Below, in pieces: positions 6,160-59,602 of a stretch of 64,000 nt of DNA (within the stretch, counting starts at the first letter, position 1; every line of letters begins with the position of its first letter). Location of the stretch: the IMG/VR virus record IMGVR_UViG_3300031521_001337, positions 62,001 through 126,000 of that record; one strand, 5' to 3'. The position numbers and the translations under genes were made by a program. Source of the DNA: a virus. The notes under the pieces were generated by a model. That model did not search any database, was not told the DNA's origin, and was given only the letters and a program-made list of their open reading frames with translations.

Positions 6160-6566
<407 letters not shown>

Positions 6567-6581
6567 TTAAATTGAAATTAA

Positions 6582-6950
6582 ATGGAAATAGTAGAAAATT
6601 TTAAGATGAAAGTTAGTAATCCTGATCAAATAAAAACTGTTCAGAGAATATTAAGTAGTATGGGTTTATTAGAGAAATTTTTATCTTCATTTTATTATGA
6701 AGGAATTTGTTATAGATATCATTCAAAACAAATGACTGGTTTTGGAAATACTAATGTACATTTTGATGATCATGAGCATAAAGAAATTACTTATGATGAA
6801 TTTATTGAAAAATATGATATTTTTAATGTTTCAACTAAAAATGTTATAATTACTACTGATATCATGTTTAAATTCATTGAATATTACATGGATCACCTTA
6901 ATGATGAAAAAACGCCACAAGAACTATTTAAAGATTGGAAAAATGATTGA
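6582..6950 (+). CDS. Tandem paralogue A1
   Basis: 122 residues, first of five consecutive related genes (6582-8437). Shared features are an N-terminal xNFKxxV pattern, a VQ-x-hydrophobic segment near residue 20, a central E-I/L-T-x-[DE]-x-F motif and a C-terminal helix YxMDHLNDE ending xxLFxxF/W. This copy lacks the central Trp-Gly region found in the others and is the most diverged. It begins 16 bases after tmRNA. No known domain is recognised. Confidence 0.75.
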   Translation: MEIVENFKMKVSNPDQIKTVQRILSSMGLLEKFLSSFYYEGICYRYHSKQMTGFGNTNVHFDDHEHKEITYDEFIEKYDIFNVSTKNVIITTDIMFKFIEYYMDHLNDEKTPQELFKDWKND

Positions 6951-7338
6951 AAGTTTTAAAATTAAAATTGCAGATGAAAGAGAACATAAAATAGTTCAAG
7001 AAACTTTGTTTTCTAATGGAGCTAAATGGAGAGAAGGTCAAGAAACAGTTTTATTTGGACCTAATCCAAATATAAATTGGAATGGACTTGAATATAATTC
7101 TGTAACTAAAAAAATTGGAGGATTTACTGATATAACTTCTACATCATCGTTTAATAGACATGATAAAAATGAAATATCATTTGCAGATTTTTGTAGTAAA
7201 TATGTAACTGACTCTATTCATTCAGAAAAAAATAAATATGTTTTGTTTGTACAATATTGTATGAACCATTTAAATGATGAAAAAACATTTGAAGAATTAT
7301 ATGATGAATATATATTAAATCTGAAAAATGATAAATGA
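6943..7338 (+). CDS. Tandem paralogue A2
   Basis: 131 residues, same architecture as its neighbours: xSFKIKI start, VQETLFSNGAKW, then a Gly/Asn-rich loop, EISFADF and a closing YCMNHLNDEKT helix. It overlaps the previous copy by 8 bases and the next by 11, so the five copies are probably translationally coupled. Confidence 0.75.
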   Translation: MIESFKIKIADEREHKIVQETLFSNGAKWREGQETVLFGPNPNINWNGLEYNSVTKKIGGFTDITSTSSFNRHDKNEISFADFCSKYVTDSIHSEKNKYVLFVQYCMNHLNDEKTFEELYDEYILNLKNDK

Positions 7339-7720
7339 GAATTTTAAAATAAGAGTAAATAATCCAGAAGAGTCCATATTTGTTCAAAAACTATTATTTC
7401 AAAATGGTTCAAAATGGAGAAATGGTAAATCAGAAGTTAATCTTGTTGATAGCCAAGGTAGTTCGTGGAAAGGGTTATATCATTATTTAAATAATACTAT
7501 AACTGGTGATGCAACTATTGGAGGATATTTTCATAATCATGATAATCCTGAAATAACATTAGAAGAATTTAAAATTAGATATTTTGGTAAAGGTGAAACA
7601 AGTAGACAAACTTGTATTGATTTTGCTAAATATTGTATGGATCATTTAAATGATGAATTAACAATAGAACAATTATTTGATAACTTTATAAAACCAAAAA
7701 ATGGAAATAAAACCTTTTAA
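7328..7720 (+). CDS. Tandem paralogue A3
   Basis: 130 residues. It is closest to copy A2 (ENFKIRV, VQKLLFQNGSKW, EITLEEF, YCMDHLNDE), indicating recent tandem duplication. It overlaps both neighbours. No enzymatic motif is apparent. Confidence 0.75.
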   Translation: MINENFKIRVNNPEESIFVQKLLFQNGSKWRNGKSEVNLVDSQGSSWKGLYHYLNNTITGDATIGGYFHNHDNPEITLEEFKIRYFGKGETSRQTCIDFAKYCMDHLNDELTIEQLFDNFIKPKNGNKTF

Positions 7721-8072
7721 AATATATCATCTTGATAATGAACAATCTAAAATTGTTCAAAATATGGTATTTCGCGATGGTGGTGGATGGGGAAGCAGCT
7801 TAGATAAAGATTTAAGAATGTTTAGTCCTAGTAATACTATTACTTTATGTATGACATCTAAAGGTATGTTAAGATCCGGTGTAGTAGTTACCCAAAGTAC
7901 ATTTGATGGTCTTGAAGGAGAAGAATTAACATATGATCAATTTAAAGAAAAATATGCTAATACTTTACGTATATCTAGAGAGAAAATCCTTGCATTTGCT
8001 GAATATTACACTAACAATATAGTTGGCGCATCATCTCCAGATGATGTATTAACTGACTTCTTAAAATTATGA
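7701..8072 (+). CDS. Tandem paralogue A4
   Basis: 123 residues. It keeps the VQNMVF...GGGW segment and ELTYDQF motif, but the C-terminal helix reads AEYYTNN instead of YCMDHLNDE, so A4 and A5 form a second subgroup. It ends TGA TAA and overlaps the next start by four bases. Confidence 0.75.
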   Translation: MEIKPFKIYHLDNEQSKIVQNMVFRDGGGWGSSLDKDLRMFSPSNTITLCMTSKGMLRSGVVVTQSTFDGLEGEELTYDQFKEKYANTLRISREKILAFAEYYTNNIVGASSPDDVLTDFLKL

Positions 8073-8437
8073 TAATCGAAAATTTTAAAATACATCATCT
8101 TACTAGGGATCAATTTAAATTTGTTCAAGAAATAATATTTAAAAATAATTGTTCATGGGTAGGATCACACACAACTAACATTAAAGAACATTCAGATAGT
8201 AATGATATTTCTATTGTAGTAAATAATCTTGAGGCGAGATCTGGATCAGATATTGTACAAGGTATATTTGATCAACTTAGAGGAGAAGAAATTACTTTTG
8301 AACAATTTAAAGAATTATATTTTATTAATATTCCTAAATTTACTAAACAACAAATGTTTGATTTTGCGGAATTTTATGCAAATAATTCAGACACAATATT
8401 AAATGATGAATTGCTAAAACAATTTTTAAATCCATAA
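8069..8437 (+). CDS. Tandem paralogue A5
   Basis: 122 residues, most similar to A4 (ENFKIHHL, VQEIIFKNN-SW, EITFEQF, FAEFYANN). It shares one base with the start of the NMN adenylyltransferase gene, so the paralogue array and the NAD genes appear to be one transcription unit. Confidence 0.75.
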   Translation: MIIENFKIHHLTRDQFKFVQEIIFKNNCSWVGSHTTNIKEHSDSNDISIVVNNLEARSGSDIVQGIFDQLRGEEITFEQFKELYFINIPKFTKQQMFDFAEFYANNSDTILNDELLKQFLNP

Positions 8438-16224: not shown

Positions 16225-16442
16225 AAATCTCTTTAATTGAAGCAAAACGGTAACCAGGGGGAGACACCCAACCCAATAAGGGGTAAGGACGAAAGTTGAG
16301 TACGTAGGTTATAAACCATAGCAGTGGTTGAATGTTTTGGTAAATGTAGTTATGATATGGTTAGTGTTCGCAGAAAAGCCTTCGTTATGACCTAAGTCAA
16401 TATAATTATTCCACTCTGCTTAAAGTGAATAAAGAGATTTTT
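16225..16442 (+). ncRNA. Structured RNA F (218 nt)
   Basis: A perfect 11-bp terminal helix (AAATCTCTTTA at 16225, TAAAGAGATTT at 16430) encloses about 195 bases without a gene. The segment GGTAAGGACGAAAG resembles GGTAAGGACTGAAA in the insert of RNA C, so the two RNAs may share a motif. Confidence 0.6.
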
Positions 16443-16445
16443 TAT

Positions 16446-16522
16446 GCCTACTTATACCCTCAAGCTTATATCTTGTTGAAAGGTTATTTGGTGACAGCCT
16501 GGTTCAATCCCAGGAGTAGGTA
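16446..16522 (+). tRNA. Atypical tRNA, possibly D-armless tRNA-Ile(UAU)
   Basis: Acceptor GCCTACT/AGTAGGT and T arm CCTGG-TTCAATC-CCAGG are normal. The best anticodon arm is CAAG-CTTATAT-CTTG (4 bp, U33, anticodon UAU). That leaves only eight bases for a D arm and a long variable region with a GTTA/TGAC hairpin. An alternative loop GTTGAAA (anticodon UGA) has a poor stem. An HNH gene starts five bases after it. AUA is a frequent codon here. Confidence 0.5.
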
Positions 16523-16526
16523 CAAT

Positions 16527-17006
16527 ATGGAAAGAAGTAAAAATGAATTATTAGCAATTGAAAAAGGATATAAAATAACTATAAATGGTGATATTTTAAA
16601 TCCTAAAGAAAAAATTTTAACAGGAACTATTTATAATAAAAATTATAAAAAATTTAATATTAGATTAAATGAAAAACATATTCCAGTTAAAGTACATAGA
16701 TTACAAGCATATCAAAAATTTGGAGAAATTATTTTTAACGAAGATATAGTAGTTAGACATTTAGATGGTAACGGATTAAATAATTCTTGGGATAATATTG
16801 AAATTGGATCATATAGTGATAATATGATGGATAAACCTAAAGAAGAAAGAATTAGAATTGCATCTAATGCTAATAAAAAATATTCTGATGAATTAGTTTT
16901 AGAAATTAAAGCATACCGAAATTTAGGGCATACTTATAAAGAAATTATGGAAAAATATAATATTAGTAGTAAAGGAACCATTAGTAATATTATTAATAAT
17001 AGATAA
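16527..17006 (+). CDS. HNH homing-type endonuclease with HTH tail
   Basis: 159 residues. The segment VRHLDGNGLNNSWDNIEIG (about 88-106) is the H...N...H-type core of the HNH_3 family. The C-terminal 45 residues (YRNLGHTYKEIMEKYNIS) form a helix-turn-helix used for target recognition. It lies exactly between two tRNA genes, a typical site for free-standing homing endonucleases. All Trp codons are TGG in this one. Confidence 0.85.
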   Translation: MERSKNELLAIEKGYKITINGDILNPKEKILTGTIYNKNYKKFNIRLNEKHIPVKVHRLQAYQKFGEIIFNEDIVVRHLDGNGLNNSWDNIEIGSYSDNMMDKPKEERIRIASNANKKYSDELVLEIKAYRNLGHTYKEIMEKYNISSKGTISNIINNR

Positions 17007-19874: not shown

Positions 19875-20618
19875 ATGGAAAACAAATATTCAAAAGAAAA
19901 TTTAGAAAAAATTGTAAAAGAAAGTTATTCTTTTGCAGATGTGTGTAGATATTATGGGTTGCCTTTAACTGCTGGTAATTATGAAACAATTCAAACTAAG
20001 ATAAAAAAACATCAAATTAGCACAATTCATTTTAAAAGAAATTCTTCAAATGAAACTAAGAATGTGTACACTTTAGATACAATCTTTTGTAAAGATTCAG
20101 CATATACACAAACAAGTAAGTTAAGAGATAAATTATTAAAAAATAATCTAAAAGAACATAAATGTGAATGTTGTGATAATACTAAATGAATGGGAGAACC
20201 TATTCCATTAGAAACACACCACATAGATGGTATTAAAACTAATAATGAATTAAATAATCTTAAATTATTATGTCCAAACTGTCATGCTTTTACTGATAAT
20301 TATAAAGGTAAAAATGTTAAAGATAAAGTTATAGATGCATTATATTGTAATTCTTGTGGTAATACTATAACAAGTTCTTCTGTAAGTGGTTTATGTTTAA
20401 GTTGTTCTGCTAAACGAATAGCTAATGATTTTTACGATGAACTTGGTATAACTCGTGAATATTTAAAAACTTTAGTTCGCACAGAAACATTTATTAATAT
20501 TGGTAAATTATACAATAGATCAGATAATGCTATTAGAAAATGGTGTAAACATTTTAATATACCTTCTTCAAAGAAAGAAATAAATAGTTTGTCTGATGAT
20601 GAATGGGATAAAATATAA
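19875..20618 (+). CDS. HNH endonuclease with in-frame TGA (read as Trp)
   Basis: 247 residues if TGA at 20187-20189 is read through. Before it, residues 95-104 end in CECCDNTK; after it the frame continues MGEPIPLETHHIDG, NNLKLLCPNCHAFTDNY. This is one unbroken HNH domain whose family has Trp exactly at the TGA (pattern C..C....W.G.P..L..HHIDG). The gene has its own promoter. A second zinc ribbon (CNSCG...CLSC, about 160) and a helix-turn-helix follow. Other Trp codons are TGG. Without readthrough a 104-residue inactive fragment results. Confidence 0.85.
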
Positions 20619-20861: not shown

Positions 20862-20950
20862 GGGGGTGTGGCGAAATTGGTAGCCGCAGCTAAATATAGG
20901 TTAGACCATAGCGGTCGTGAGACATGGGGGTTCGAAGCCCTCCGCCCCCA
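20862..20950 (+). tRNA. Leu-type tRNA-like RNA with abnormal anticodon arm
   Basis: Acceptor GGGGGTG/CGCCCCC, Leu-like D arm, long variable arm (GGTC-GTGA-GAC) and discriminator A point to a leucine tRNA. The anticodon region is about 24 bases instead of 17. The best fold is TATaGG/CCATA with a bulged A and a TTAGA loop, so a UAG anticodon is possible but not in a normal 7-base loop. A canonical Leu(UAG) lies at 21128. Confidence 0.55.
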
Positions 20951-20956
20951 CTAAAT

Positions 20957-21035
20957 TCCCCAATGGCGTAATTGGCAGACGCGTATTCTTCGGAATATGT
21001 CGAGAGACATGTGGGTTCGAGTCCTCCTTGGGGGA
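20957..21035 (+). tRNA. Leu-type tRNA-like RNA with UUCG loop in place of an anticodon
   Basis: Acceptor TCCCCAA/TTGGGGG, Leu-like D arm (TGGCGTAATTGGCAGACGC), variable arm (GTCGAGAGACATG) and discriminator A are present. The anticodon arm is GTATTC-TTCG-GAATAT, a stem capped by the very stable C(UUCG)G tetraloop. No anticodon is exposed. LeuRS of most bacteria does not read the anticodon, so charging with Leu remains conceivable. The T stem has one mismatch. Confidence 0.6.
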
Positions 21036-21041
21036 GCAAAT

Positions 21042-21122
21042 ATGTCAGTATACAAGCGGTTAAAGTAGTTAGTCTCCAAAACTAATCCGAAAGGTTCGTG
21101 GGTTCAAATCCTACCTGATGTG
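21042..21122 (+). tRNA. tRNA-Trp(CCA) with long variable arm
   Basis: The anticodon arm TTAGT-CTCCAAA-ACTAA gives CCA. A1-U72 and discriminator G are the Trp identity elements. The acceptor ATGTCAG/CTGATGT has two wobble pairs. Unlike ordinary Trp tRNA, it has a Ser/Leu-like D arm (TACAAGCGGTTAAAGTA) and an extended variable region with a TCC-GAAA-GGT hairpin. It is the only Trp tRNA seen and the best candidate to read UGA as well as UGG. Confidence 0.8.
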
Positions 21123-21127
21123 CAAAT

Positions 21128-21210
21128 GCTTGAGTGGCGAAATGGTTAATACGCGTATGCCTTAGGAGCATATGTCGAAAGATGTGTCGGTTCGAGTCCG
21201 ACCTCGAGTA
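21128..21210 (+). tRNA. tRNA-Leu(UAG)
   Basis: Acceptor GCTTGAG/CTCGAGT. The anticodon arm TATGC-CTTAGGA-GCATA gives UAG. Variable arm TGTCGAAAGATGTG and T arm GTCGG-TTCGAGT-CCGAC are normal. Discriminator A. Confidence 0.92.
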
Positions 21211-21230
21211 CAAATATAAAAATAGATAAA

Positions 21231-26074: not shown

Positions 26075-26422
26075 ATGAGATTAGTAACAGTAAATTTAGA
26101 TATAGATCCTGAATCTGGACTTGAAGAAGAATTTGATGATGTACCACAATCAGAATGGTGATTTTGGACATGTTATTACAAAAGTGAACCCGATGGACTT
26201 TGTTGTGTATATGGTTATCAAGATCCAGATCAACCACATCAGTTAATATATAGTCAACAAATTGAAGTTTGTGGTCGATATGTTAGAGGTTTTGGTTCAT
26301 GTTGTTATGATCATGAATTATTTGCATTAACTAATAATACAGATAATTACGAATTTATATGTTGGTTTGAAAAACTAAGTTATGAAATTAGAAAAGAATT
26401 AATGATAATATTACCTTTTTAA
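26075..26422 (+). CDS. Hypothetical protein with in-frame TGA (read as Trp)
   Basis: 115 residues if TGA at 26159-26161 (codon 29) is read. The frame is open on both sides: it starts with ATG 26075 ten bases after the previous stop and ends TAA at 26420 with ELMIILPF, parallel to the LPF ending of the 25786 gene. Around the TGA the sequence reads SEW-x-FWTC against KWYFFTGC in the relative, so x aligns with Tyr and Trp fits. Terminating at the TGA would leave a 28-residue stub. Confidence 0.75.
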
Positions 26423-29271: not shown

Positions 29272-29637
29272 ATGAAATTATCAAATGCGCAAGTAGGTGC
29301 TTTAGCATCAAAGATTAAAAAAGAATTAAAAGAAAAGTATCAAGATCCAATTTATGCTGCAAATGCTGCAATTAGAGAATCGGATGAATACAAAAATTTC
29401 TTCGAACTTAATGAAGATTGTATTATGTTACAAACGATTTCTGATAAATGGAAGGTTCGTTCATATCGTACAAACGATACTATGAATGAAATTCGTTCTG
29501 CATATTTTGAAACTATTCTTAAAGATGCTCCTAGTTTTAGTACAGAGGATATCGAAAATGAAATTCACTTGGCTACGATTGATGTTCAGAATATAGATGA
29601 ACTTATCAAAAAGGTTGCAAATAAATTTGCAGTCTAA
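29272..29637 (+). CDS. Hypothetical protein
   Basis: 121 residues, helical, charged, no recognised domain. It is followed by a terminator, closing the 26.8-29.6 kb operon. Confidence 0.65.
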   Translation: MKLSNAQVGALASKIKKELKEKYQDPIYAANAAIRESDEYKNFFELNEDCIMLQTISDKWKVRSYRTNDTMNEIRSAYFETILKDAPSFSTEDIENEIHLATIDVQNIDELIKKVANKFAV

Positions 29638-29644
29638 AAAATTC

Positions 29645-29672
29645 AGAGAGAGCTTAGGCTCTCTCTATTTTA
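29645..29672 (+). terminator. Rho-independent terminator
   Basis: AGAGAGAGC-TTAG-GCTCTCTCT is a perfect 9-bp stem with a T-rich tail. Confidence 0.9.
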
Positions 29673-29679
29673 ACTAACT

Positions 29680-29979
29680 ATGATTATAGAAGAAAAGGAT
29701 TTTAAAATAGTACATGAAGGTGGAAATTTTGTTTTGTATTCAACAACAGGATCAGAAACCAACAAATCAAAACCCGTAGGTTACTACTTACAATTAGAGA
29801 GTGCTCTAAGAGCAATAGTAACTATAAGAAAAGATAAAAAATATACTGGGGGTGAATCGTATACCCAGCTATCTCACGATTTAAGATCTTATACTAAAGC
29901 AAAGAGTGATTTTAATGCTGTAGTTTATTCAATTTATAATCCGATTTCAGACCTTAAAAAACAAGTCATAACTTATTAA
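29680..29979 (+). CDS. Hypothetical protein
   Basis: 99 residues. The layout (short beta strands, YLQLESALRAIVTIRK helix) resembles small phage proteins of unknown function that carry a central 'A-L-x-x-I' helix. No function assigned. Confidence 0.65.
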   Translation: MIIEEKDFKIVHEGGNFVLYSTTGSETNKSKPVGYYLQLESALRAIVTIRKDKKYTGGESYTQLSHDLRSYTKAKSDFNAVVYSIYNPISDLKKQVITY

Positions 29980-29989
29980 ACTTAAAATA

Positions 29990-30382
29990 ATGACACATGC
30001 TGAATATTTAGAGCAACAAGAATTAATAGAATATAGAAAACATACTCAAGCTAGTGCAAGAGATATGAATCTAGATTGTATTATTGGTGAAGACATCAAT
30101 ACAATTAATGATGAAGTAGGTGGACAAGATGGAATGTATAGTAACTTTCCAATTAGTAGAGTCTATAGAAATGCCGAATCTATTAGAGTTTATTGTTTAA
30201 CATCACAAGGTGGAGTTGCAATAATTCAAATAGACGGACGTCCTCAAGTAGTAACATTAGGTGAAGATGATGGATATTTCTTTCTTAATTCAGCTAGTTT
30301 ATATTGTGGTTTCTACGGAAATAAAACTAGTTTTGTTTGGGCTCTTTCTGAAGCGTTGTCATTATTCAATAATATAACTTAA
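29990..30382 (+). CDS. Hypothetical protein
   Basis: 130 residues, alpha/beta, no motif. It lies 10 bases after its upstream neighbour and one base before a membrane protein gene. Confidence 0.65.
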   Translation: MTHAEYLEQQELIEYRKHTQASARDMNLDCIIGEDINTINDEVGGQDGMYSNFPISRVYRNAESIRVYCLTSQGGVAIIQIDGRPQVVTLGEDDGYFFLNSASLYCGFYGNKTSFVWALSEALSLFNNIT

Positions 30383-37164: not shown

Positions 37165-38017
37165 AAGAAGAAAAGAAGAAGATGCTAATTATAGAGCTAT
37201 TTGGTGTAATGGTAAAACAATTCGTTTTGCAATTGATCCAAGTAAACCTATTACTGAGTTGAAGTATCCAGAATTTTATGATGTAAAAGTTACTGGAAAT
37301 TGTGAGGGTGAATGTCCGTGGTGTTATATGGATAGTAAGAAAGAAACTCATTATGAGAATATTGTTGATAAATTTAAAACTTTCTTCAGTAATGTTTCAA
37401 AAGAACAATTACCTTTTCAAATAGCATTTGGTGGTGGAGAACCAACTTCACATCCTGATTTTGTTGAATTGATGAGAGTTTGTAAGGAAGAGTTTGATAT
37501 TACTCCAAATTATACTACTAATGGTATGTGGTATCATTTAGATGAATTTAATCCTCAAGAACAAGCAAATTTATTAAATGCTACAAAACAATATTGTGGA
37601 GGAGTTGCTATAAGTTGTCATCCACATTTGAAAAAATATTGGGATAATGCAGCAAAACTTTATGTGGGAAATGGAATTAAACTTAATTTTCATCATATAA
37701 TTTCTGATAAACAATCAATTGATGATTTTGTTAAAATTTATAATGAGTGGAAAGATAAAGTTGATTACTTTGTACTTCTTCCTTATGGTAATGTAGGACG
37801 TGCTCCTCATAAAGAAATTGATTGGGATTATCTTGTAACTCAGTTACCAGAAGACGCGAGTAAAATAGCATTTGGTGCAAATTTCTATCCTTATCTTAAA
37901 GATGGTGATCACAATATAAAGATAAGTTTATATGAACCCGAAATTATGAGTAAATTCTTAGATCTTAAAGATATGAGTATTTATCCAAGTAGTTTCAGTA
38001 ATGAAAAAATTAATTAA
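37157..38017 (+). CDS. Radical SAM protein
   Basis: 286 residues. CEGECPWC (about 49-56) is the CxxxCxxC motif that binds the 4Fe-4S cluster, and FGGGEPTSHPDF (about 93) is the GGEP motif that holds SAM. A TIM-barrel-like order follows. No SPASM Cys cluster is seen at the C-terminus. The substrate is unknown. Such enzymes could modify a nucleotide, peptide or cofactor. The DLITNSS gene directly upstream is a candidate partner. Confidence 0.85.
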   Translation: MIKRRKEEDANYRAIWCNGKTIRFAIDPSKPITELKYPEFYDVKVTGNCEGECPWCYMDSKKETHYENIVDKFKTFFSNVSKEQLPFQIAFGGGEPTSHPDFVELMRVCKEEFDITPNYTTNGMWYHLDEFNPQEQANLLNATKQYCGGVAISCHPHLKKYWDNAAKLYVGNGIKLNFHHIISDKQSIDDFVKIYNEWKDKVDYFVLLPYGNVGRAPHKEIDWDYLVTQLPEDASKIAFGANFYPYLKDGDHNIKISLYEPEIMSKFLDLKDMSIYPSSFSNEKIN

Positions 38018-39232: not shown

Positions 39233-39805
39233 ATGAGAGGAAGTGGGATTAGAACAATTGTAGAGGAAAGACCTAAGAACGTAGCAGTAATGGATGTATT
39301 TTCAAAATTGGTACAAGAAAGAATTATTTTTATTGATGGGGTTATTGATGAAGACTTAGCAAATGGCATTATTGCTCAAATGTTATACCTTGATTCATTA
39401 GACAAGGTAAAACCAATTAATATTTATATTAATACTTATGGTGGAAGTGTATATGATGGATTAGGTATATATGATATTGCTGAAAAAATTTCAGCTCCTA
39501 TTAGAACTGTAGCTATGGGTAAATGTTGTTCTATGGGAGTTCCATTAGTACTTATGGGTACAGAACGTTGTGCTACTAAACGTACAAGATTTATGATTCA
39601 TCAACCATCTGGTGGTGCTGATGGTCAAGTATCTGATATCAAAATTACACTTGAAGAAATGTTATTACTTAAGACAGAATTATATAATATTATTTCTGAA
39701 AGAACGGGACAAACTTACGAACAAGTTGAAAAAGATTGTGATCGTGACAAATGGATGAGTGCTGAAGAAGCACTAGCATACGGAATTATCACAAAAATTC
39801 TTTAA
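39233..39805 (+). CDS. clpP: ClpP-like serine protease
   Basis: 190 residues, normal ClpP length. GKCCSMG (about 96) holds the catalytic Ser, MIHQPSGG (about 121) the His, and the later DCDRDKWMSAEEA (about 170) the Asp. An N-terminal NTYGGSV loop fits the fold. ClpP forms barrels fed by AAA+ unfoldases. Phage ClpP is often linked to capsid maturation, but no capsid gene is adjacent here, and two AAA+ proteins are encoded in this window. Confidence 0.9.
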   Translation: MRGSGIRTIVEERPKNVAVMDVFSKLVQERIIFIDGVIDEDLANGIIAQMLYLDSLDKVKPINIYINTYGGSVYDGLGIYDIAEKISAPIRTVAMGKCCSMGVPLVLMGTERCATKRTRFMIHQPSGGADGQVSDIKITLEEMLLLKTELYNIISERTGQTYEQVEKDCDRDKWMSAEEALAYGIITKIL

Positions 39806-45694: not shown

Positions 45695-45982
45695 ATGAAT
45701 GGAATGTATATTTTAGACGGAAAAACACCTGTTAAATGTGATGATTTAACAGAGTGGTCGATACAGATGTCAACAATGAACAGAATAGTCGCAAAGACTG
45801 TTATTGGTTGTGCTGAAGTTTCAACAGTATTTTTAGCTATAGATCATCAATTTGGTGACGGTGTTCCGTTATTATTTGAAACAATGATCTTTGGTGGAGA
45901 ATACGATATGTATCAAGATCGATATTCAACATGGGAAGAAGCCTTAATTGGTCATGACTGTGCTTGTGATATGATTAGATAA
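45695..45982 (+). CDS. Hypothetical protein
   Basis: 95 residues, mixed alpha/beta, no recognised domain. It is followed by an unusual 94-base gap before the next annotated ATG. Confidence 0.65.
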   Translation: MNGMYILDGKTPVKCDDLTEWSIQMSTMNRIVAKTVIGCAEVSTVFLAIDHQFGDGVPLLFETMIFGGEYDMYQDRYSTWEEALIGHDCACDMIR

Positions 45983-46076
45983 GTTTTTTATAAACCCACA
46001 ACTTACCAAAAACCCATTATTACAATCCCTTAAAGGATATTACAGGAAAGGAAAGCGTAGTTTTAAACTACAATTA

Positions 46077-46691
46077 ATGCAACAATTTGAACTTTCTTCG
46101 AAAGAAGAAATCAATATTTATATAAATAGCGGGTTAACACCTACAGAACTATTTATATTACGATTACTATTTTTAGCAATTGATGGTGACTCTAGCCAAT
46201 TAATAAATTATTTGTCAAACGTTCAAGACGGAAAACAATTATTTAGACAGGTTTTAGTTTCACTAAAAGAGAAGAAAGTAATACTATCAACATTTAAAGT
46301 ACCCTGTGAAGGAGAATCGTTGAACTATCAAAATATACCTTTTAATAAGAATTTTATTAAAATGTATGCTCGAGAATCTAATGAGATTGGAAAAGAGTTA
46401 TTTGATGCTTACCCACCTTTTATCAATATTAATGGTAAAATGTGTAGCATTAAAAACTTTACCAAAGCTGGTTTGTACTCGTTTGATGAGTTTTGTTTAT
46501 ATTATTCGAAGGCGATAAAGGCTGCTGGAGTAACTCATGAAAGAGTTATGAATGCCCTTGAATATGGAAAAGAGCATAATTTAATTGCTTATTCTATCAT
46601 TGAATACATCGCATCTCATAAATGGGTTGAGATTGAATATATAAGAGATAGTGGTAATGTGAATGGCTACAATAATTCAGAACTATTGTAA
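46077..46691 (+). CDS. Hypothetical replication-block protein
   Basis: 204 residues from ATG 46077, helical, no recognised domain. It overlaps the DnaB-like helicase by one base, so a helicase loader or partner is possible by context. The frame is open upstream to 45975 and the extra 34 codons read like protein (basic, LTKNPLLQSLKGYYRKGKRS), so the true start may lie upstream; see findings. Confidence 0.68.
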   Translation: MQQFELSSKEEINIYINSGLTPTELFILRLLFLAIDGDSSQLINYLSNVQDGKQLFRQVLVSLKEKKVILSTFKVPCEGESLNYQNIPFNKNFIKMYARESNEIGKELFDAYPPFININGKMCSIKNFTKAGLYSFDEFCLYYSKAIKAAGVTHERVMNALEYGKEHNLIAYSIIEYIASHKWVEIEYIRDSGNVNGYNNSELL

Positions 46692-58711: not shown

Positions 58712-59602
58712 ATGGGTAAAACATTAACAACACAAGAATTTATTGAGAAAGCAAAATTAGTTCATAATGAAAAATACGATTATTCTAAAGTTGATTATAA
58801 AAAATCATCTAAGAAAGTAATAATTGTATGTAAAGAACATGGTGAATTTGAACAAACTCCGAATATTCATTTAGATAATCATGGGTGTCCAGCTTGTTCT
58901 AAATTAAAAAAGCGAAACGATATTTCAAAAATTCCAAATATAAAATTATCTAATTATATTGTTTCAAATCCGATTGAACTTTCAGGAAAATTAGAAATAA
59001 TAGGATCTATTTATTTATTTATAAATCCTATAAATAATAAAAAATATATTGGAAAAACAATTATGAAATTAAGTAGTAGATTTTCTGCACATTTAAATAA
59101 ATCAAAACATTCTGATTACTATTTTTATAGATCCATCCGTAAATATGGATGAAATGTATTTGAAAAACATGTATTATATCAAACAGAAATAGTTGATAAC
59201 AATAAAGAAAATAAAAAATTAATAGATTCTATTATTTGTGGAAAAGAAATAGAATTTATTAATTTATTTGAATCAAATAATCCTAAATTTGGATATAATG
59301 AAACAAATGGAGGTGAAGGAACAGCTGGATGTAAATTTTCTAATAAAGTTAAAGAAAAAATGAGTAATGCTAGAAAAGGTAAAGGAAATTCAATGTATGG
59401 AAAAACATTAGATAAAAATCCTAGATCTATTCCAATTTTACAATTAGATTCTAATAATAATATAATAAAAAGATGGAGCTGTGCTGTTGAAATACATCAA
59501 GAATTAGGATACTCTATTAGTAGAATTAGAGATTGTTACAATAATAAATGTGAGATATATAAAAAATATAAATGGATAAAAGAAGAAAATTATGGAAAAT
59601 AA
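58712..59602 (+). CDS. GIY-YIG homing-type endonuclease with in-frame TGA (read as Trp)
   Basis: 296 residues if TGA at 59150-59152 (codon 147) is read. The GIY-YIG core is GSIYLFINPINNKKYIGKT (about 98-116). The family continues with an arginine helix and then [AS]IRKYGW: the phage has SIRKYG-TGA-NVFE, so the TGA sits exactly on the conserved Trp, and the catalytic Glu region (CGKEIEFINLF) and NUMOD-like tail (KNPRSIPILQLD) follow in the same frame. The start has a zinc-like domain (CKEHGEFEQTP...GCPACSK). Other Trp are TGG. Own promoter. Confidence 0.85.

Follow-up and report, generated by a model that had tools for sequence, protein, structure and literature searches.

An in-frame UGA codon in a GIY-YIG/NUMOD3 homing endonuclease gene of a crAss-like phage that probably reads UGA as tryptophan in its late genes

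The window is a stretch of 64,000 nucleotides comprising bases 62001-126000 of a 213,486-base IMG/VR record (G000); its principal features are collected in Table 1. Toward its 3' end lies a free-standing homing endonuclease gene that, under translation table 11, yields 146 amino acids before a single stop, a TGA, followed by 149 open codons up to a TAA. With TGA read as tryptophan (Trp), the product has 296 amino acids. Pfam places GIY-YIG upstream and NUMOD3 downstream of the TGA in one frame, and the domain score above the curated cut-off, together with the NUMOD motif, assigns the product to the GIY-YIG endonucleases. With a codon-usage score whose training set was the window's early genes, this frame ranks clearly first on either side of the TGA (0.243 and 0.284 bits per codon). 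Translation, Pfam, and codon usage thus confirm what an earlier note on this DNA had proposed, namely that the reading frame is broken by this TGA alone. The N-terminal region of the protein includes a zinc-finger-like stretch with a weak match to DUF4379. By inspection, the sequence 5' of the gene holds a host-like -7 box, which might indicate early transcription, and a weak -33 box. Three further IMG/VR contigs, possibly from related samples, carry the same TGA in copies identical across all 891 bases. Viral contigs searched for divergent relatives yielded identical copies and matches to the N-terminal repeat only, so that no relative shows TGG at this codon.

Table 1. Coding features of the early region, in window positions unless marked as record positions
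Feature	Position	Strand	Remarks
Standard-coded early region	1-64000	+	fills the window
HNH endonuclease	16425-17006	+	no TGA, two TGG; the exception among early endonucleases
HNH homing endonuclease	19875-20618	+	one in-frame TGA; the other case of the earlier note
In-frame TGA of that HNH gene	20187-20189	+	Trp conserved in 4/4 relatives
GIY-YIG/NUMOD3 homing endonuclease gene, free-standing	58712-59602	+	296 codons with TGA as Trp
GIY-YIG catalytic domain match	59003-59161	+	residues 98-150; Pfam 25.5 bits, cut-off 22.6
In-frame TGA of the GIY-YIG gene	59150-59152	+	codon 147, read as Trp
NUMOD3 DNA-binding motif	59333-59410	+	residues 208-233, 3' of the TGA; Pfam 31.8 bits
NUMOD4-HNH endonuclease	record 45966-46376		one TGA, within the EIW motif (Trp site)

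The phage that carries these genes is, judged from its sequence, crAss-like. The record encodes a crAss major capsid protein (PF23898, scoring 48 bits where the cut-off is 27; record 178083-179513) and a crAss-like terminase that matches crAssphages in tblastn searches at 27-30% identity, with E values down to 1e-51. The best terminase match in the searched phage collection reaches 44%, and a search of that collection for near matches with window 52-64 kb gave none. Two contigs from other samples, G002 (record 8054-82974) and G004 (70583-183007), together span 8054-183007 and overlap at about 100%, their agreement with the record having been checked at the ends and at middle points; this overlap places the suppressor tRNA described below, the window, and the recoded late genes in one phage. 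Joined via a shared repeat, the crAss-like genome would be 176.6 kb long and carries more than 20 tRNAs.

The record also holds a siphophage module (184826-211541; L006, L007) with a second terminase, a portal, a tape measure, and a serine integrase. The crAss capsid gene lies on one side of it and the crAss portal gene on the other, and it is bounded by two identical 1945-bp direct repeats (182881-184825 and 6236-8180) in tail-fibre genes. The assembly of other contigs branches at this repeat. The crAss-repeat-siphophage junction is resolved in G000, G001, and G003, and no contig was seen that resolves crAss-repeat-crAss. The module may be a real cointegrate of one phage within another or may have been bridged to the crAss-like genome by assembly; in either case the junction does not affect the finding, since the crAss-like part is covered by G002 and G004, from which the module is absent. 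Relatives of the siphophage terminase occur in Bacteroidales genomes (91% in a Paludibacter MAG). The module is also TGA-recoded, and ARAGORN found no UCA tRNA within it. Two relatives of its terminase, L070 and L109, have nine in-frame TAG codons each, and L070 is accompanied by a tRNA with a CTA anticodon, so the siphophage family seems to include amber-recoded members.

The crAss-like part is divided into a plus-strand early region at about 34.3-129.6 kb of the record and minus-strand late blocks on either side, "early" and "late" being assigned from strand and gene content rather than from expression data. Across the early sequence sampled (record 34.3-60 kb and 62-129.6 kb), 137 ORFs other than endonucleases use TGG 336 times and TGA never internally, and TGA is the terminal codon of 12, which indicates that UGA is a stop codon in early genes. 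The two late blocks present the opposite picture: 45 code-4 ORFs hold 116 TGA versus 78 TGG codons, 29 of the 45 contain TGA, and all 45 stop at TAA or TAG. Between 126 and 146 kb of the record, the longest ORF grows from 429 amino acids under table 11 to 2596 amino acids when TGA is read through, and a phage tail lysozyme gene (record 129708-130415) has two TGA and no TGG. The recoded late genes, with more than 100 in-frame TGAs, lie outside the window, and the concentration of recoding in late genes is that of code-4 phages. Within the window, other apparent TGA-containing ORFs were rejected, either because the first TGA falls in a 5' extension before the likely start (3753, 17789, 27481, 38078, 45948, 50774, and 56853) or because the ORF extends beyond a natural TGA stop (1044, 6877, 7701, 8437, 22062, and 34310). 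Matches to a host-like promoter consensus were barely more numerous than in a rough shuffle (50 versus 35), and a k-mer search for late promoters gave nothing clear. At the level of sequence, UGA is Trp across the late genes, and the code is split between early and late.

The identity of the encoded amino acid is seen in the terminases. In the siphophage-type terminase, all five TGAs align with TGG in relatives of 75% identity and less, the relatives compared being standard-code genes that use TGG only. In the crAss-like terminase, the majority of TGAs fall opposite Trp, encoded as TGG or TGA, in relatives at about 60% identity, and the remaining sites are mainly Phe or Tyr. Trp positions of relatives thus carry TGA in these hallmark genes, as in code-4 phages. 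Such phages commonly, if not universally, encode a UCA suppressor tRNA, and ARAGORN detects one tRNA with a UCA anticodon here, on the minus strand in a late cluster outside the window (record 30014-30087). Its size of 74 nt, A1-U72 acceptor pair, discriminator G, and CUUCAAA loop fit a Trp tRNA rather than SelC, and the molecule is predicted to be a tRNA-Trp suppressor that is presumably charged with Trp. UCA tRNAs also occur in the relatives L088, L089, and L092. The record was searched for a phage release factor and a Trp-tRNA synthetase, and neither was found; among the stretches read, ARAGORN detected no amber suppressor. A homing-endonuclease-like gene with a weak HNH_3 match (record 29430-30041) immediately follows the suppressor tRNA on its downstream side. 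As far as can be told from sequence, UGA stands for Trp in this phage.

The endonuclease codon itself contributes less to this conclusion. The earlier note had placed it on a conserved Trp of the GIY-YIG family, which does not hold: in 13 phage homologues the column contains Trp twice, Phe three times, Ile and Lys twice each, and Ala, Thr, Met, and Val once each, and the alignment to I-TevI (1mk0) has a gap at this position. Pfam scores hardly change whichever of W, Q, R, G, or C is placed at codon 147 and do not discriminate among them. Because the column varies across the family, the single-site argument is weaker than stated, and the proof that UGA is Trp lies elsewhere in the phage rather than at this site. 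The decoding proposed in the note is nevertheless supported by the Trp matches of the terminases, by the UCA tRNA, and by TGA at Trp sites in two more early endonucleases. Very probably, then, the endonuclease TGA is also read as Trp.

Three of the four endonuclease genes in the early region carry one TGA each, compared with none of the 137 other early ORFs. The second TGA reported in the note, in the HNH gene, does lie on a conserved Trp. If three TGA genes were distributed at random over the 141 genes of the early region, all of them would be endonucleases, of which there are four, with a probability of 4/457310 (about 9e-6), a figure that is weakened if the ORF at 26075-26422 of the window is a further early TGA gene. 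This small ORF, which lies among tRNA genes and has no Pfam match, has a TGA after a TGG (...QSEW-TGA-FWTCYY...) and is possibly another early gene in which TGA encodes Trp. Two readings fit the TGAs of the early endonucleases: recent arrival of these genes from a recoded context, or late expression or blockage until the suppressor is present.

With high confidence, the gene is regarded as encoding a mobile homing endonuclease of the GIY-YIG/NUMOD3 type, carried by a crAss-like Bacteroidota phage, which reads UGA as Trp in its late genes and supplies its own tRNA-Trp(UCA). If, as seems likely, the host uses the standard code, UGA would terminate the endonuclease at residue 146 until the suppressor accumulates. 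The 146-residue product would lack NUMOD3 and probably the catalytic Glu: the I-TevI alignment stops at chain residue 63, and the catalytic Glu75 lies further on. In the presence of the suppressor, UGA would instead be decoded as Trp, giving the complete enzyme of 296 residues; both this timing of readthrough and the activity of the gene are what we infer. A more speculative and rather doubtful extension is that UGA acts as a translational lock, keeping the endonucleases truncated and inactive until suppressor tRNA builds up. They are found among standard-coded early genes and would possibly be transcribed early, and DNA cutting and homing would then be limited to the stage at which phage genomes are plentiful.

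Homing endonucleases often decay, and this one could be decaying as well. The TGA would then be a chance nonsense mutation in a UGA-recoding phage, with an irrelevant product, a reading with which the variable column and the uniformly identical copies agree. It is nonetheless improbable, given that three of the four early endonucleases have TGA and none was seen with TAA, TAG, or a frameshift, that two of the three TGAs occupy Trp sites (in the HNH gene and in the EIW of NUMOD4), and that the coding signal 3' of the TGA equals that 5' of it. Still less probable is a host that is itself a code 4 bacterium reading UGA as Trp, so that nothing would be phage-specific; this would account for the free use of TGA in late genes, but conflicts with early ORFs that use TGG only in a phage of 30% GC, 12 of them ending in TGA, with the phage's own UCA tRNA, with the known association of the crAss-like family with Bacteroidota, and with the Bacteroidales genomes that house the companion siphophage's terminase relatives. 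Selenocysteine, suggested by the ARAGORN label tRNA-SeC for the UCA tRNA, was rejected as scarcely credible because this 74-nt tRNA lacks the long variable arm of SelC and the TGA sites align with Trp rather than Cys.

Recoding of this kind is already known, since Crassvirales with TGA-to-Trp reassignment, mostly in late genes, and with UGA suppressor tRNAs have been published, as have TGA codons within the ORFs of introns (Yutin et al. 2021, PMC7886860). The zeta crAss-like phages with opal recoding, among them phage Lera, are about 176-180 kb long and have more than 20 tRNAs (PMC12386605). The phage that carries the UGA-interrupted endonuclease resembles them in its mostly late TGA-to-Trp recoding, UCA suppressor tRNA, tRNA number, and several homing endonucleases, and its size, tRNA number, and opal recoding would fit a place in the zeta group. 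It differs in having only distant kin in the searched collection and in the lack of an amber suppressor among ARAGORN's predictions for the stretches read. In code-4 phages, according to a review citing Borges et al. 2022 (PMC10136315), late and lysis-type genes are recoded, early genes are standard, and the host code is presumed standard. The present phage agrees on each point, the tail lysozyme being its lysis-type example, and departs from code-4 phages in general in that early-region homing endonucleases also carry TGA. The GIY-YIG domain followed by NUMOD3 is shared with I-TevI and Seg-type endonucleases, from which this protein differs by its in-frame TGA and the extra N-terminal zinc-finger-like stretch. 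UGA in early endonucleases is the mildly unusual part. The finding adds a recoded crAss-like phage, one whose endonuclease genes are broken or missed by standard-code annotation, and the contrast of 3/4 with 0/137 opens two possibilities to testing: that recoding gates the activity of mobile elements, or that mobile genes simply import the late-gene code from other recoded contexts.

The record includes several other RNA features. A phage-encoded tmRNA at 6160-6568 of the window (Rfam RF00023, 107 bits) has the tag GNKTISFARTAFMAAA, ending in TAA TAG. Odd tRNAs occupy window positions 20862-21211: one of the Tyr-ATA type, an 82-nt Trp-CCA tRNA with a long variable arm, and one (20956-21037) whose short, UUCG-like anticodon loop has no readable anticodon. 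Near the late/early boundary are two RAGATH-1 hammerhead ribozymes, at record 37201-37278 and 39692-39760 (L009 17201-17278 and 19692-19760).
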